The notes under the pieces were generated by a model. The model searched no databases. It was not told the origin of the DNA and saw only the letters and a list, made by a program, of their open reading frames with translations. The translations under genes were made by a program, and so were the position numbers. From positions 1-7,290 of the forward strand of contig PHAM01000073.1 of NCBI GenBank assembly GCA_002841685.1: a stretch of 7,290 bases of DNA. Direction: 5' to 3'. The DNA comes from Elusimicrobia bacterium HGW-Elusimicrobia-2. GTDB taxonomy: Bacteria; CG03. This document shows, piece after piece, positions 1 through 6,989 of this stretch. Each line of letters opens with the position of its first letter. Position 1 is the stretch's first letter.

Positions 1-87
1 TTCAGAGTGGGAACTGTCAGCGAGGGGGAAGGGGTTTTTCTTGATGGGAACAGAACGGATTATAAAGGATTCAGGCATTTCTCTTAA
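1..87 (+). CDS. thiL: C-terminal end of a thiamine-monophosphate kinase (ThiL-like), partial
   Basis: The first reading frame is open from the left edge to a TAA at 85-87 and gives 28 residues. They include GEGVFLDGN and end in GFRHFS. ThiL proteins characteristically finish with a Gly-rich segment of the type G-E-G-V-x-L-x-G followed by G-(F/W/Y)-x-HF, which this matches. ThiL phosphorylates thiamine monophosphate to thiamine diphosphate in the cytosol. The context supports the call, because thiL directly precedes tsaE, tsaB and rimI in Bacillus-type gene orders, and those functions follow here in that order. The tail overlaps the most likely tsaE start by 44 bases. Only the last few percent of the protein is present, so another PurM/AIR-synthase-like family member cannot be excluded. 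Confidence 0.6.
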   Translation, partial: FRVGTVSEGEGVFLDGNRTDYKGFRHFS

Positions 88-526
88 AGAGAGCGCTGTG
101 TTCGAGAGCGGCTCTCCCGAGGAAACCAGGGCGATAGCTTCGGGTTTTGCCGCTACGCTTAAAAGCGGCGATGTTGTTCTGCTGGCGGGAGATCTGGGGT
201 CGGGCAAGACCGAGTTTACCCGGGGCATCGTCTCCTGCTTCGGCTCTGAATCCGATGTCAGCAGTCCGAGTTACAAGCTCATCAACAGATACGACGGTAC
301 CCCCACTGTGTATCACATGGATTTTTACAGGATCAAAGAGAGCGGAGAAATTTTTGACATAGGCATCGAGGAACTTTTCGCGGAAAAAGCGGTTTTCATA
401 GTGGAATGGCCGGAAACAGGCCTCGAATTTTTTAAGAATTTTTATCTCGTCAGAATAAAATCTTTATCCGGAGATAACAGAGAGATCCGGATATTTGAGA
501 GCGGCACAGCGGAAATATCGGAATGA
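44..526 (+). CDS. tsaE: tRNA threonylcarbamoyladenosine (t6A37) biosynthesis ATPase TsaE
   Basis: TsaE is the small P-loop ATPase that works with TsaB and TsaD to place threonylcarbamoyl on A37 of ANN-decoding tRNAs. From the ATG at 44 the protein has 160 residues, the usual size. Visible motifs are the P-loop GDLGSGKT (residues 49-56), VSSPSY (72-77, the family's V-x-SPT-(F/Y) switch with Ser for Thr), HMDFYR (91-96, matching H-x-D-x-YR) and FIVEWPE (118-124), whose Glu-Trp is typical of the Walker B-like strand. The start is uncertain. TTG 41 and ATG 44 follow a G-rich site at 23-34 but make an overlap with the upstream gene. GTG 98 lies 10 bases after the upstream stop and would begin the protein just before the SPEET segment, close to where Bacillus TsaE begins. 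The stop overlaps the next start as ATGA. Confidence 0.95.
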   Translation: MGTERIIKDSGISLKESAVFESGSPEETRAIASGFAATLKSGDVVLLAGDLGSGKTEFTRGIVSCFGSESDVSSPSYKLINRYDGTPTVYHMDFYRIKESGEIFDIGIEELFAEKAVFIVEWPETGLEFFKNFYLVRIKSLSGDNREIRIFESGTAEISE

Positions 527-2793
527 GTGAATTATATGTCAGCACTTCCATGGGCGAGTATGCCATCGCCGCTGTGATGGGAAGCCGCCGAAGTTTTTAT
601 CACACGGATTTCGGCAAGCGCGATCTGGACGGATTCTTTGAATGTTTCGCGAAAGTGAAAGACGAGTTCCCCCTTTCAACGTTTAGAAAAATATTTGTTG
701 AAATAGGCCCGGGTTCCTTTACCGGCGTCAGGGTCGGCGTCACTTTCGCGCGTGTGCTCGCGCAGCAGCTCAGGATCCCGCTCATAGCCATGAGGTCGCT
801 TGATGTGGCCGCCGCGGGTGCGGCTTTTGAGTCCGCCGTCTTAGGCGTGGCGGCCCCGGGTGAAACGGTGGTCGCTATGCTGGATACGGGGAACGGGTTC
901 GTCTACGGAGCTGTTTATCCCGGCGGCGTCATCGGCGCCGCAGCCAATGCGGATATTTACGCTGTGGAAATAGACGAATGGCTTGATTATGCGCTGTCGC
1001 TCCCCGGAAAACTGTGTTTGTGCGGCAGAATATCTCAGCGTGATGAAGATATCCTGAAGAAGAAAAACCTGAAATTTTTAAAGCTCAAAGCTACGGATAT
1101 ACTGGAGAATATGATTCTGCTTTCCGCCTCTGTTGATGATCACGTGGGGGAGGCAAAGGGCGAGGCGGCATCGAGGGCTTCGGAAATAGTGCCGATATAC
1201 ATAAGCCGCAAACAGGCGGAAGCCAAATGGCAGGAAAAATTGGAGGATGAAATGGTCAAAATATCCCAGCTTGTGGCAAAAAAAGAAGGGGTCAGAGAAG
1301 ATATCAAAAACCTTGAAAAGGTAAAAAGGGAGAAGGAGCGGGAGATAGAAGATATCGCGCAGCTCTCAGAGACGGTCGACGCTATCCGCGGGGAATTGGC
1401 ATCTTCCATGGATGAACTGTCAATACTCAACGCCAAAAGAACGGCATATACCGAATCAATTGCGGCGAAAGAGAAAAAAATAGAGGAATATGAAAAGAAA
1501 CTTGAAGATTTAAAAAGCCGTTTGCGGGATTGCTCGCGGGAGCTGGCCTTGAGGGAGGCGAAATATGAGAAGATTAAAAAACTTCCGCCTGAAATCCCGA
1601 GGGAAGTGGAGATCTATATCCAGCAGCGTGATGAGCTCAGGCAGGAAGTGGAGAATCTGAAAGAGGAAAAGGGCAATTACAGCCGCCAGATCGACGAGCT
1701 CGCCACTTCCCGTTTTGAAGAAGTGTTTGAGAGAATAAAGAAAGAAGAAGAGATGCTGGGCGCGCTTTCTGACAAACGCCGCTGGAAAGAGGAAGAAATA
1801 AAGACGCTGGAAGAAAGCATCAAAGATATCAATCGTAAACGGGCTTTGGCGGAAGAAGCCGCGCTTGAGACGGCGGACTTAGACGCCGCGTCAAAAGAAA
1901 TAACAAAGCCCTCCTCGCCCCTTGCCGGGCCGGAAGCTCCGGGCGGGGCTGAAACGGAAACTGAAGCGCCGCCAGAGCCGGAGATAGCCTTCGCGCCTGA
2001 GACGGCGGACTCAGAAGCCGCGCCTGAGATGACGCCTGAAGAGATTGAAGAGCCGCCTGTCATCGTTGCGCTCGCGCCTGAGCCTGAAGCCGCGGGCGTG
2101 CCGTCTTCCTCGTCGGAAGAAGCCGCGCCTGAAACGGCGGACTCAGAAGCCGCAGAGGAACCGCCCCCCCGTGAATCAACTCCCGTAAAAGCAGACGAGG
2201 ATATAACGGAAGAAATATCTGATCACACCGCGCAGGAAAGCTCTGATGAGAAAACGCCTGAAGCTGATGAATTTAAAAAGATGGACAAGCGACTGCCGGT
2301 AGATCCGCTGAAAAAAATGAGTGTTGAGAACCTGGAATATATGGTAAGGCCTTTCGGCATTAAAGATCTTCCCGAAGTCATGAACATAGAAGAGGCTTCT
2401 TCCGAAAGGCCCTGGCGGCGCCAGATGTTCAAGGAGGAACTGGCTATTCCCGTGTCCAAACTTTACACGCTTTCCGGACGCTGGCAGCGGCGTGACAAGA
2501 TGTCCCTTATGGCATACGCGGTGTTCTGGGTCGTTTCGGAAAAAGCGCACATAATCAATTTTGCCGTGGCTCCGGCTGAGTGTAACAAGGGCGTCGGTAG
2601 CTGCCTTTTGTATGAGATTTTGAAAAAAGCCTCAAGCCTGGGCTGCAAATCGGCCTATCTTGAAGTCCGCGTTTCCGGGCAAGCCGCGCATAAATTGCTT
2701 GAGAAAGCGGGTTTTACCAGAACAGCCGAGCGCAAGGATTATTTCGGCTATCCGAAAGAAGACGCTTTTATTTACGAGCGAAAACTGCAATAA
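523..2793 (+). CDS. tsaB: TsaB-RimI fusion: t6A synthesis subunit TsaB, coiled coil, Pro/Glu/Ala linker, ribosomal-protein S18 acetyltransferase domain
   Basis: One unbroken 756-residue frame joins two proteins that are usually separate. Residues 1-236 are TsaB, the inactive Kae1-like subunit that dimerises with TsaD. They carry the hallmark GPGSFTGVRVG (62-72) and the terminal PIYISRKQAE (224-233). Residues about 234-446 are rich in Lys, Glu, Leu and Ile in heptad-like order and look like a long coiled coil, broken by KLPPEIPRE near 353-361. Residues 447-600 are an acidic Pro/Glu/Ala/Ser linker with a repeated segment. Residues 603-756 are a GNAT domain of RimI type: an acetyl-CoA loop, CNKGVGSCLL (687-696); LEVRVSGQAA (713-722), where RimI usually has SN; and the terminal EDAFIYERKL. 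RimI acetylates the N-terminus of ribosomal protein S18. Known TsaB is about 230 residues and RimI about 150, so some 370 residues are extra. The start ATG overlaps the tsaE stop and has no clear ribosome site, so translation is probably coupled. Both end domains are clear; the role of the middle is unknown. Confidence 0.93.
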   Translation: MSELYVSTSMGEYAIAAVMGSRRSFYHTDFGKRDLDGFFECFAKVKDEFPLSTFRKIFVEIGPGSFTGVRVGVTFARVLAQQLRIPLIAMRSLDVAAAGAAFESAVLGVAAPGETVVAMLDTGNGFVYGAVYPGGVIGAAANADIYAVEIDEWLDYALSLPGKLCLCGRISQRDEDILKKKNLKFLKLKATDILENMILLSASVDDHVGEAKGEAASRASEIVPIYISRKQAEAKWQEKLEDEMVKISQLVAKKEGVREDIKNLEKVKREKEREIEDIAQLSETVDAIRGELASSMDELSILNAKRTAYTESIAAKEKKIEEYEKKLEDLKSRLRDCSRELALREAKYEKIKKLPPEIPREVEIYIQQRDELRQEVENLKEEKGNYSRQIDELATSRFEEVFERIKKEEEMLGALSDKRRWKEEEIKTLEESIKDINRKRALAEEAALETADLDAASKEITKPSSPLAGPEAPGGAETETEAPPEPEIAFAPETADSEAAPEMTPEEIEEPPVIVALAPEPEAAGVPSSSSEEAAPETADSEAAEEPPPRESTPVKADEDITEEISDHTAQESSDEKTPEADEFKKMDKRLPVDPLKKMSVENLEYMVRPFGIKDLPEVMNIEEASSERPWRRQMFKEELAIPVSKLYTLSGRWQRRDKMSLMAYAVFWVVSEKAHIINFAVAPAECNKGVGSCLLYEILKKASSLGCKSAYLEVRVSGQAAHKLLEKAGFTRTAERKDYFGYPKEDAFIYERKLQ
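1861..2153 (+). repeat. Three evenly spaced short repeats in the TsaB-RimI linker
   Basis: Three related in-frame segments of about 29 bases begin at 1861, 1993 and 2125, each exactly 132 bases (44 codons) apart. They encode ALETADLDAAS, APETADSEAAP and APETADSEAAE. The second and third differ at a single base over 29 positions; the first is more diverged. The sequence between them is acidic and Pro-rich but does not align by eye, so this is either a decayed 132-base tandem repeat or independently maintained short motifs. Confidence 0.7.
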
Positions 2794-2818: not shown

Positions 2819-3691
2819 ATGAGAAAATTAAAACTTGGGATACCGAAAGGATCCCTGGAAAATTCAACGATAGCGCTCTTTGGCAAAGCCGGTTTCAATA
2901 TTTCCGCCAAATCAAGGTCGTACAGCCCCGACTGCGATGATGATGAGATAGAAGTGCTGCTGATCCGGCCGCAGGAAATGGCGAAGTATATCACTGACGG
3001 CATAGTCGATTGTGGCCTGGCGGGCTTTGACTGGATACTGGAATCCGGCCTCAAGGTCAAAGAGATATGCGAACTCAATTACTCCAAAAGTTCGTTCGGC
3101 CCCGCCAAATGGGTGATAGCCGTCAGAAATGACTCTAAAATCAAGAAAGTGTCCCAGCTTGCGGGGAAACGGATTTCCACGGAGCTCATGAATGTGCTCA
3201 AAAAATGGCTCGTGAAGAAAGGGGTGAGGGCGAAGATAGATTTTTCCTGGGGCGCTACCGAGACCAAGGCCGGCACGCTTGCCGACGCTATATGCGAGCT
3301 CACCGAAACGGGAGAATCCATCAGAAGAAACAACCTGAGGGTCATAGATGAGGTTATGGTTTCCACCACACGATTTATATCATCCCCATCTGCGTACAGC
3401 GACTCCTGGAAAAAATCCAAGATGGAAGACATAGCGCTGCTCCTCAAAGGCGCGCTCAAGGCGGAAGGCCTGGTGGGATTGAAGATGAACGTTTCCGCCG
3501 GACGCGTTAAGAAAGTTGAGCAGATCCTTAAGAAGTACAGCAATCCCACGATATCGTCACTGGCCTTCGGCGGCGGTATGGCCATGGAGGTTGTCCTGAT
3601 GGAGGTGACCGCCAGAAACATAATTCCTCTTCTGAAAAAATCCGGAGCCGCAGATATTATAGAGTACCCGCTGACGAAAGTTATACGATGA
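2819..3691 (+). CDS. hisG: ATP phosphoribosyltransferase, long form (HisG)
   Basis: HisG catalyses the first step of histidine biosynthesis, condensing ATP with PRPP to phosphoribosyl-ATP in the cytosol. The 290-residue product has the classic start LGIPKGSL (5-13), the segment GIVDCGLAGFDWI (61-73) that corresponds to the family's D-x-G-I-x-G-x-D-W, and the PRPP-binding region ADAICELTETG (155-165) followed by SIRRNNLRV. The last 75 or so residues (VGLKMNV, SNPTISSLAFGG, then EYPLTKVI at the end) match the C-terminal regulatory domain of long-form HisG, the site of histidine feedback inhibition in that family. The long form does not need the HisZ partner that short HisG requires. No other histidine gene is in the window, so it is separated from the rest of its pathway or those genes lie elsewhere. 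The stop overlaps the gltX start as ATGA. Confidence 0.95.
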   Translation: MRKLKLGIPKGSLENSTIALFGKAGFNISAKSRSYSPDCDDDEIEVLLIRPQEMAKYITDGIVDCGLAGFDWILESGLKVKEICELNYSKSSFGPAKWVIAVRNDSKIKKVSQLAGKRISTELMNVLKKWLVKKGVRAKIDFSWGATETKAGTLADAICELTETGESIRRNNLRVIDEVMVSTTRFISSPSAYSDSWKKSKMEDIALLLKGALKAEGLVGLKMNVSAGRVKKVEQILKKYSNPTISSLAFGGGMAMEVVLMEVTARNIIPLLKKSGAADIIEYPLTKVIR

Positions 3692-5570: not shown

Positions 5571-6989
5571 CTATTTTTTTTGTAATCTGAAAAACACACC
5601 CAGGCCCTCAGTCAGTATTTTAAGGTCACTCAGAGAGGTTATTTTTTTTAGTTTTCTTAGTAAATATTTGGGCCGGAAATAAAATTCTTTAAAAGCTCTT
5701 TTTTGCCATGCGATTAGTTCTTCCTGATTTATGTTTTGCTGCACAAGTATGGGTTTTGATTTTGTAAGTGGAGCAAAATCTTCCCAACGGATAGAGCTTG
5801 ATATGTATCCCGCGTTTAGAGCTTCAGTATAAAGATCTGTCCCCGGGAACGGCGTGGTTAGAAAAAAAGTGGCGTTGTCAAGTTCCAGTTCTTTGGCATA
5901 GTTAATTGTTTGACGTATAGTTTCACATGTTTCGCCTATGTTTCCCAGCATGAAGCTGGCATGTACATTTAATCCGGCTTCAGCGGCTGTCTTTACAGCT
6001 TTTCTGCCCATAGCCACTGTGGCATTTTTCCGCATTATATCCAGTATTTTCTGTGAACCTGATTCCAGGCCGAAAGAAATTTTACGACAGCCCGCCTTTT
6101 TCATTTCATCAAGCATTTCTTTATCAATGACATTTACCCGCCCGAAGCATATCCACGCAATCTCAAGTTTCCGGGCAGTTATCATCCGGCATATATCAAT
6201 AACACGTTTTTTGTTTAAGGTGAAAGTGTCGTCGTAAAAGTTGAATTCCCGTATTCCGTATTTTTCAACACATTCTTCAATTTCATCCACAACCATTTTG
6301 ACCCGGCGGTACCGAACACGCCGTTTCCATACCAGTTTTGAGATACAGTGCATACAGTCGTAAGGGCATCCTCTTGAGGTCATAATTGAAGTTGATTTGA
6401 AATTACTCACTTTTTTTGTCGGTGCCTGGTAATATAAGTCCAGATTAAACAAATCCCTTGCGGGGAACGGGATGGTGTCTATATCTTTAATCAGCTCCCG
6501 TTCCTCGGTTAGACTTACTTTTCCGTTCTGTTTGTAAGCGATTCCTTTAATCTTACTGTAATCGTCGGATCCTGAAGAAATAGCCGCTGCCAATTCGCAG
6601 AAAGTCAGTTCGCCTTCCCCTCTCACGGCAAAATCAATACAACCTGTTTTAATAATTTCTTCGGGGAAAGCGGTTGGATGAGGCCCGCCGGCAATCACGA
6701 ATGTGCGGGCATTAATGCTTTTTACAATTTTTGCTACCGCTACCACATGATTAAAAGCCGGAGTGGGAGCGCTTATGCCAACTAAGTCAGGCTGATATTT
6801 AAGTATGGCCATCTCAATATCGGAGTAATCCATGCCGCATGTTTCAGCGTCTAAAATATTTATGCCGCAATCCAGATGTTCTCTGAGGTATCCAGCCAGA
6901 TAGGCCAGATTAAGAGGGATTGCATGGCCGCCGGAATTTTTTATTCCGCTGAATTTGATGTAAGGCGGATTTATTAACAGTATATTCAC
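5571..6989 (-). CDS. B12-binding-domain radical SAM protein (BchE-like superfamily), substrate unknown
   Basis: The 472-residue protein has the standard two-part layout. Residues 1-140 form a cobalamin-binding Rossmann-type domain: ILLINPPY at the start, PDLVGISAPT (67-76), VIAGGPHPTAFPEE (98-111) and FAVRGEGE (120-127). DAETCG (47-52) sits where the cobalamin-ligating D-x-H-x-x-G motif would be, with Glu for His. Residues about 200-400 form the radical SAM barrel, with the 4Fe-4S motif C208-x3-C212-x2-C215 in TSRGCPYDCMHC, FYDDTFT (251-257), ISFGLESGSQ (304-313) and TPFPGTDLY (379-387). Members of this group methylate or rearrange lipids, pigments, antibiotics and other substrates; the sequence alone does not give the substrate. 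The start is GTG, chosen because xNILLINPP is the usual family beginning; it has no ribosome site of its own. The gene is clearly more AT-rich than the operon it faces, and no partner gene is adjacent. Confidence 0.9.
   Translation of the reverse strand: MNILLINPPYIKFSGIKNSGGHAIPLNLAYLAGYLREHLDCGINILDAETCGMDYSDIEMAILKYQPDLVGISAPTPAFNHVVAVAKIVKSINARTFVIAGGPHPTAFPEEIIKTGCIDFAVRGEGELTFCELAAAISSGSDDYSKIKGIAYKQNGKVSLTEERELIKDIDTIPFPARDLFNLDLYYQAPTKKVSNFKSTSIMTSRGCPYDCMHCISKLVWKRRVRYRRVKMVVDEIEECVEKYGIREFNFYDDTFTLNKKRVIDICRMITARKLEIAWICFGRVNVIDKEMLDEMKKAGCRKISFGLESGSQKILDIMRKNATVAMGRKAVKTAAEAGLNVHASFMLGNIGETCETIRQTINYAKELELDNATFFLTTPFPGTDLYTEALNAGYISSSIRWEDFAPLTKSKPILVQQNINQEELIAWQKRAFKEFYFRPKYLLRKLKKITSLSDLKILTEGLGVFFRLQKK

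Follow-up and report, generated by a model that had tools for sequence, protein, structure and literature searches.

Introduction

Fusions of TsaB, a subunit of the bacterial t6A synthase, with the acetyltransferase RimI have been published for Bordetella and Mycobacterium leprae (PMC4926160). The reason why rimI so often adjoins or sits inside t6A genes is unexplained. In TsaB, the motif GPGxxTGxR belongs to the helical bundle that faces TsaD, and the C-terminal tail reaches across the interface onto TsaD (PMC9654439). In E. coli RimI, Glu103 takes the proton and Tyr115 gives it (PMC3347575). The M. tuberculosis RimI has a relaxed specificity and accepts N-terminal Glu and Asp as well (PMC4926160). 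Among eukaryotic acetyltransferases, the inactive yeast Naa50, without catalytic residues, plays a role in ribosome binding, and in the Y190F mutant of C. thermophilum Naa50 activity is lowered, not abolished (PMC9500918).

The protein described here is encoded in a window of 7,290 nucleotides (the whole stretch of DNA analyzed) from Elusimicrobia bacterium HGW-Elusimicrobia-2. It is a long-armed variant of the known compact TsaB-RimI fusion, so far seen only in the clade f1 among the matches listed. Compact fusions were also seen in the surveyed genomes (G340/L113 and G042/L124), which together with the published cases bears out an earlier note on this DNA that simple fusions are known elsewhere. 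They have the same order of TsaB followed by RimI in one chain; unlike the two surveyed ones, with their short spacer, the window protein has a spacer of about 370 residues of coiled coil and linker, and its RimI part has lost the catalytic Tyr and Asn. No description of a long-armed TsaB-RimI protein was found in the literature searched. As judged from the sequences, the join of TsaB, coil, linker and RimI is real and conserved in the clade, and its purpose is unproven. A covalent link, a conserved arm and a lost proton donor in one clade separate the physical link from acetylation, and the question of the TsaB-RimI link becomes testable with a single protein.

Locus and gene neighborhood

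The genome containing the window (G000) consists of 94 contigs, with a completeness of 95.97% and a contamination of 0.42%. The fusion gene occupies positions 523 to 2,793 of the forward strand and encodes 756 amino acids with zero internal stops in the ORF list of the window. From the N- to the C-terminus it consists of TsaB, a coiled coil of about 230 residues, a Pro/Glu/Ala linker of about 140 residues, and RimI. The single uninterrupted frame from TsaB to RimI read in the earlier note is confirmed by this stop-free stretch and by the same join in six assemblies. The domain boundaries given there agree to within a few residues, with the coil corrected from 210 to about 230 residues and the linker from 150 to about 140.

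Directly 5' of the fusion gene, and overlapping it by 4 nt, lies tsaE (positions 41 to 526, forward strand; PF02367, 118.3 bits); the next gene 3' is hisG (2,819 to 3,691, forward strand). The run tsaE, fusion gene, hisG, gltX and DUF1844 is operon-like, all on the forward strand, and the gene order tsaE-tsaB-(rimI)-hisG-gltX-DUF1844 is kept across the phylum. A B12-binding radical SAM gene (5,571 to 6,989, reverse strand) is located 3' of the run in a stretch of lower GC.

TsaB domain and TsaD

The TsaB domain comprises residues 1 to 229 (positions 523 to 1,209, forward strand). The TsaD/TsaB family PF00814 covers residues 53 to 131 with 48.0 bits against a cut-off of 24.8 (Pfam), and in Foldseek searches with the AF2 model the N-terminus matches YeaZ/TsaB 2gel (E 1e-7) and 3zet. 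The TsaB fold is modeled with moderate confidence, five relatives included. In common with the TsaB/YeaZ structures 2gel, 3zet and 4ydu the domain has the fold (by Foldseek), the bundle motif, intact as GPGSFTGVR at residues 62 to 70, and the C-terminal tail (P-x-Y-I-S, residues 224 to 228), where PIYIS..AKW aligns to the E. coli tail PVYLRN..AWK. It differs from them in lacking the Asp of the N-terminal ID(T/S) motif and the HT/HS motif, and in its tail, which continues straight and without a gap into the coiled coil of 230 residues. In the E. coli sequences used for comparison (TsaB and RimI), the RimI motif region matches PDB 5isv. An intact TsaD gene (385.5 bits) is located at G000:C63, outside the fusion locus, and TsaD scores above the cut-off in 15 of the 16 genomes of the phylum, the window genome among these. 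The TsaB part of the fusion may still pair with TsaD via the helical bundle and the C-terminal tail.

Coiled-coil arm

The arm consists of helix A (residues 229 to 352; positions 1,207 to 1,578), the Pro break LPPEIP (residues 353 to 358; 1,579 to 1,596) and helix B (residues 359 to 460; 1,597 to 1,902), all on the forward strand. The hydrophobic period of residues 237 to 460 is 3.50, which none of 2000 shuffles reached (p=0.0005); in the linker heptad periodicity is absent (shuffle test, p=0.93). The AF2 model of the full protein contains helices at residues 229 to 352, 359 to 395 and 398 to 460 with pLDDT mostly 80-90, and in the coil modeled alone helix pLDDT is mostly 85-97. Periodicity and the break of the helices at LPPEIP both support the coiled coil with a Pro break recognized in the earlier note. 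The pTM of the AF2 models is only 0.28-0.31, so the geometry of the coil is not fixed by them. The coil alone gave zero Foldseek matches.

Patches at approximately residues 304-320, 354-365 and 396-409 are invariant in the family f1 fusions; helix A has a conserved patch at 296-320 (M-E-L-AKR-Y-ES-E-KI) and helix B the patch SRFExVFxRIxxEE at 396-409. The dN/dS is 0.01-0.03 for residues 350-370, which include the Pro break (G000, G002 and G001), and between G000 and G002 it is 0.20 in TsaB, 0.10 in helix A, 0.02 at the tip, 0.16 in helix B, 0.26 in the linker and 0.08 in RimI. The coil is under purifying selection. An insertion of one heptad (7 residues) in the coil of G005 leaves the phase unchanged. 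Conservation of the spacer within a clade, raised in the earlier note, applies to the coil in family f1 and not to the linker.

A candidate internal start in helix A is formed by GGAGG (positions 1,242 to 1,246, forward strand) and the in-frame ATG of the invariant Met244 (1,252 to 1,254). Of the SD-like sites before internal ATGs, the GGAGG (GGGGG in G006) ahead of Met244 is the strongest in each of the six fusion genes. Synonymous-site conservation around this ATG is not significant, 73 of 300 local permutations being as high, and neither is the most codon-conserved stretch, codons 306-322 (p=0.30). ATG 244 is, as a lead only, a possible start of a free coil-RimI protein, the once separate gene.

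RimI domain

The RimI-type GNAT domain comprises residues 603 to 756 (positions 2,329 to 2,790, forward strand). Acetyltransf_1 covers residues 617 to 731 with 47.2 bits against a cut-off of 20.7 (Pfam), TIGR01575 (rimI) scores 94.3 bits against 86.4, and the best C-terminal structure matches of the AF2 model in Foldseek are RimI 2cnm and 5isv. With the RimI of E. coli (5isv) and Salmonella (2cnm) the domain shares the fold, the PW motif, the catalytic Glu and an HMM score above the cut-off; it differs from these in that Tyr115 and Asn108 are replaced and that it sits on a coiled-coil arm. RimI is the best-conserved part of the fusion, 67-69% identical between genera versus 33-34% for TsaB. 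No second protein above the RimI cut-off was present in the f1 genomes.

In the window protein Glu103 corresponds to E714, Asn108 to G719 and Tyr115 to L726. The general base Glu103 is kept in all five complete f1 fusions. The position of Tyr115 reads L, L, L, F and F in these proteins, with Phe in G005 and G006, and that of Asn108 reads G, G, S, A and A; Tyr and Asn are each found in 26 of 26 outside RimIs. The structure alignment to 5isv agrees on these changes. The acetyl-CoA loop R/Q-x-x-G-x-G/A is kept in G002, G005 and G006, and has Cys in the first position in G000 (CNKGVG) and G003. The RimI of family f2 keeps Glu103, Tyr115 and Asn108. In the coil-RimI proteins of family f3 (L061:4464-5666 and L062:3023-4219) Glu103 is replaced by Ile or Val and Tyr115 by Val, with Asn108 kept, so catalytic loss may have occurred twice in the phylum.

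Judged by its residues, the RimI domain of the fusion is probably weak or inactive catalytically. Its good conservation in spite of lost catalytic residues suggests retention for binding or an altered chemistry, not decay. Loss of Tyr115 need not end activity, as the Y190F mutant of C. thermophilum Naa50 illustrates, and the high conservation is compatible too with an enzyme that is active but has altered chemistry.

The S18 protein begins with MKKK in the window genome and with MKKK or MEKK across its genus g1 (S18 genes L102-L105); it begins with MARF in G006 and MAQR in G005. Met before Lys or Glu is not expected to be removed. Given the Met-Lys/Glu starts, S18 in the genus of the window lacks the Ala of the canonical substrate, and the MKKK start in the window genome makes an improbable canonical substrate. 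The coupling to S18 acetylation proposed in the earlier note is weakened by these M(K/E)KK starts and by the replacement of Tyr115 and Asn108 in all five complete fusions, and is not supported.

Distribution and origin of the fusion

All six family f1 genomes that have the locus carry the fusion as one frame, at identities as low as about 40%. The proteins have lengths of 756 (G000), 710 (G002), 690 (G003), 689 (G005) and 673 (G006) amino acids, and of at least 492 in G001, where the contig ends. The f1 genome G004, which is 63% complete, gave no match to the locus. In family f3 (G008 and G014) tsaB (187 aa) and a coil-RimI gene (398-400 aa) are separate and adjacent, overlapping by 14 nt (ATGCAAAACATTGA) and one frame apart. 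In families f4, f5 and f6 hisG directly follows tsaB with no rimI between them; the locus was not matched in G012 (f5). The family f2 gene of G007 lies at the start of a contig and has, 41 nt in, an in-frame TAG inside a coil-like stretch (L063:2-130); it is not assignable as fused or separate.

In the tree of RimI domains, f1, f2 and f3 form one group (support 98/99) apart from 27 rows of outside RimIs. As tsaB and coil-RimI are separate in f3, the fusion in f1 is by parsimony a derived step. The coil probably arrived with RimI, TsaB joining later, as judged from gene order and the tree of RimI domains. Sequence comparison does not support homology of the f1 and f3 coils (hhalign probability 3%). 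The f1 and f2 coils align with a score of 20 against 11-14 for shuffles and 16 for the reversed control, which is suggestive only.

Separate genes in relatives, which the earlier note had named as speaking against the fusion, do occur in f3, but no third coil gene exists there and the fused frame stands in six assemblies. That an unrelated gene for a coil separates tsaB from rimI is ruled out, since in f3 the coil forms the N-terminal portion of the protein encoded by rimI. The separate genes of f3 are also what an assembly or sequencing artefact joining two genes would have in its favor; it is ruled out, its probability being minute, since six assemblies with diverged sequences (about 40% identity at the lowest) share the join and selection is purifying to either side of it. 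No other long-armed TsaB-RimI protein was present among the TsaB and RimI matches listed from 386 genomes. No coil occurred in the long TsaB/RimI frames elsewhere among the matches listed (up to 602 codons), which were either compact fusions or overprinted high-GC frames.

Proposed function

The reading favored here, at somewhat less than an even chance, is a TsaB subunit of the t6A synthase with a stiff arm and a tethered, weak or dead RimI binding module near the translation machinery. The TsaB subunit would bear the coil-extended RimI of the phylum at its C-terminus and pair with the TsaD encoded elsewhere in the genome. Because the TsaB tail lies on TsaD and runs into helix A, the coil would form a stiff arm of two segments projecting from where TsaD and TsaB meet, beyond which a disordered tether, about 140 residues long, would hold the RimI domain. 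By analogy with Naa50, this domain may be retained to bind a partner, either ribosomal or a nascent chain, and the net outcome would be a t6A synthase kept close to the translation machinery. The likeness to yeast Naa50 is a functional analogy only: it likewise has a retained GNAT domain without catalytic residues, but is eukaryotic and a separate subunit of NatE, and its ribosome binding is demonstrated, where that of the fusion is a proposal. For the fusion, we infer that it binds TsaD and that it has a partner on the ribosome. The more specific proposal that a rigid TsaB arm tipped by a RimI-derived pseudo-acetyltransferase docks the t6A synthase on the ribosome itself or on a ribosomal protein still being made looks doubtful.

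An active enzyme with two functions, in which the arm couples TsaB, serving t6A, to an active RimI that acetylates N-termini, be it that of S18 or others, is unlikely, even with the tolerance of the M. tuberculosis RimI for Glu and Asp N-termini (PMC4926160). It would account for the RimI HMM score above the cut-off, the retained Glu103, the low dN/dS, and the situation in G005 and G006, where S18 begins with Met-Ala, Phe stands at the Tyr115 position and the RxxG loop is kept. It conflicts with the absence of the proton donor Tyr115 and of Asn108 from all five complete fusions, with the degenerate acetyl-CoA loop of G000 and G003, and with the S18 of genus g1, from which Met removal is not expected. 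Alternatively, the fusion could be incidental to the operon, an indel in the overlap having joined neighbors, with coil-RimI acting independently, perhaps also free from the ATG at 1,252, and the link to TsaB functionless. A single indel could indeed join the f3 frames, which are one apart with a 14-nt overlap, and GGAGG or GGGGG with the ATG at codon 244 is conserved in six of six genes; retention of the join across genera at about 40% identity makes this account somewhat unlikely, as do the unexceptional synonymous sites near the ATG (73/300 permutations) and the fact that Met244 also suits a coil core position. Quite improbable is an arm mainly for oligomerization, whether through parallel coils that bring two TsaB-TsaD units together or through an antiparallel hairpin that spaces them. 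The long, confident helices, the 3.5 periodicity and the phase-preserving 7-residue insertion in G005 point in that direction, but the invariant residues fall in short runs that include surface positions, beyond the needs of a plain dimer coil, and the coil geometry is not resolved by the model (pTM 0.31).

Linker and dispersed element

The disordered Glu/Ala/Pro-rich linker comprises residues 461 to 602 (positions 1,903 to 2,328, forward strand), with pLDDT <50 for 461-593. Its identity between G000 and G002 is 34%, versus 76-87% in the adjoining parts, and its length and sequence vary freely among relatives. A dispersed element about 27 nt long (CGCCTNAGACGGCGGACTNNGAAGCCGC) occurs three times here on the forward strand, at positions 1,862-1,889 (at the end of helix B), 1,994-2,021 and 2,126-2,153, where it encodes ALETADLDAA or APETADSEAA. 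A further copy, on the reverse strand at 820 to 847, falls in a loop of the TsaB domain, and 27 nt are missing at this site in G003.

The element has 12 copies in G000, 8 in G003 and 2 in G001. Five other genomes have 0 copies, G002 being without any, and the reversed control also gave 0. The majority of copies are inside open frames, where their phase is constant, and translate to APxTADxxAA or, in the opposite orientation, to GAAxxSAVxGA. Element-free sites are 27 nt shorter in the TsaB loop and at one linker site (G000 versus G003), and the site in thiL shows a 27-nt difference between G000/G003 and G002. On this sequence evidence the element is inserted in frame into genes of the genus and lengthens the fusion linker; its insertions account for part of the 66-residue length gap between the G000 and G003 fusions. 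Rickettsia palindromic elements likewise insert in frame into genes, but at about 150 bp are much longer (PMC10969869). Further copies of the 27-nt element are located at G000:C27:51356, C55:8194 and 8245, and C60:25069.
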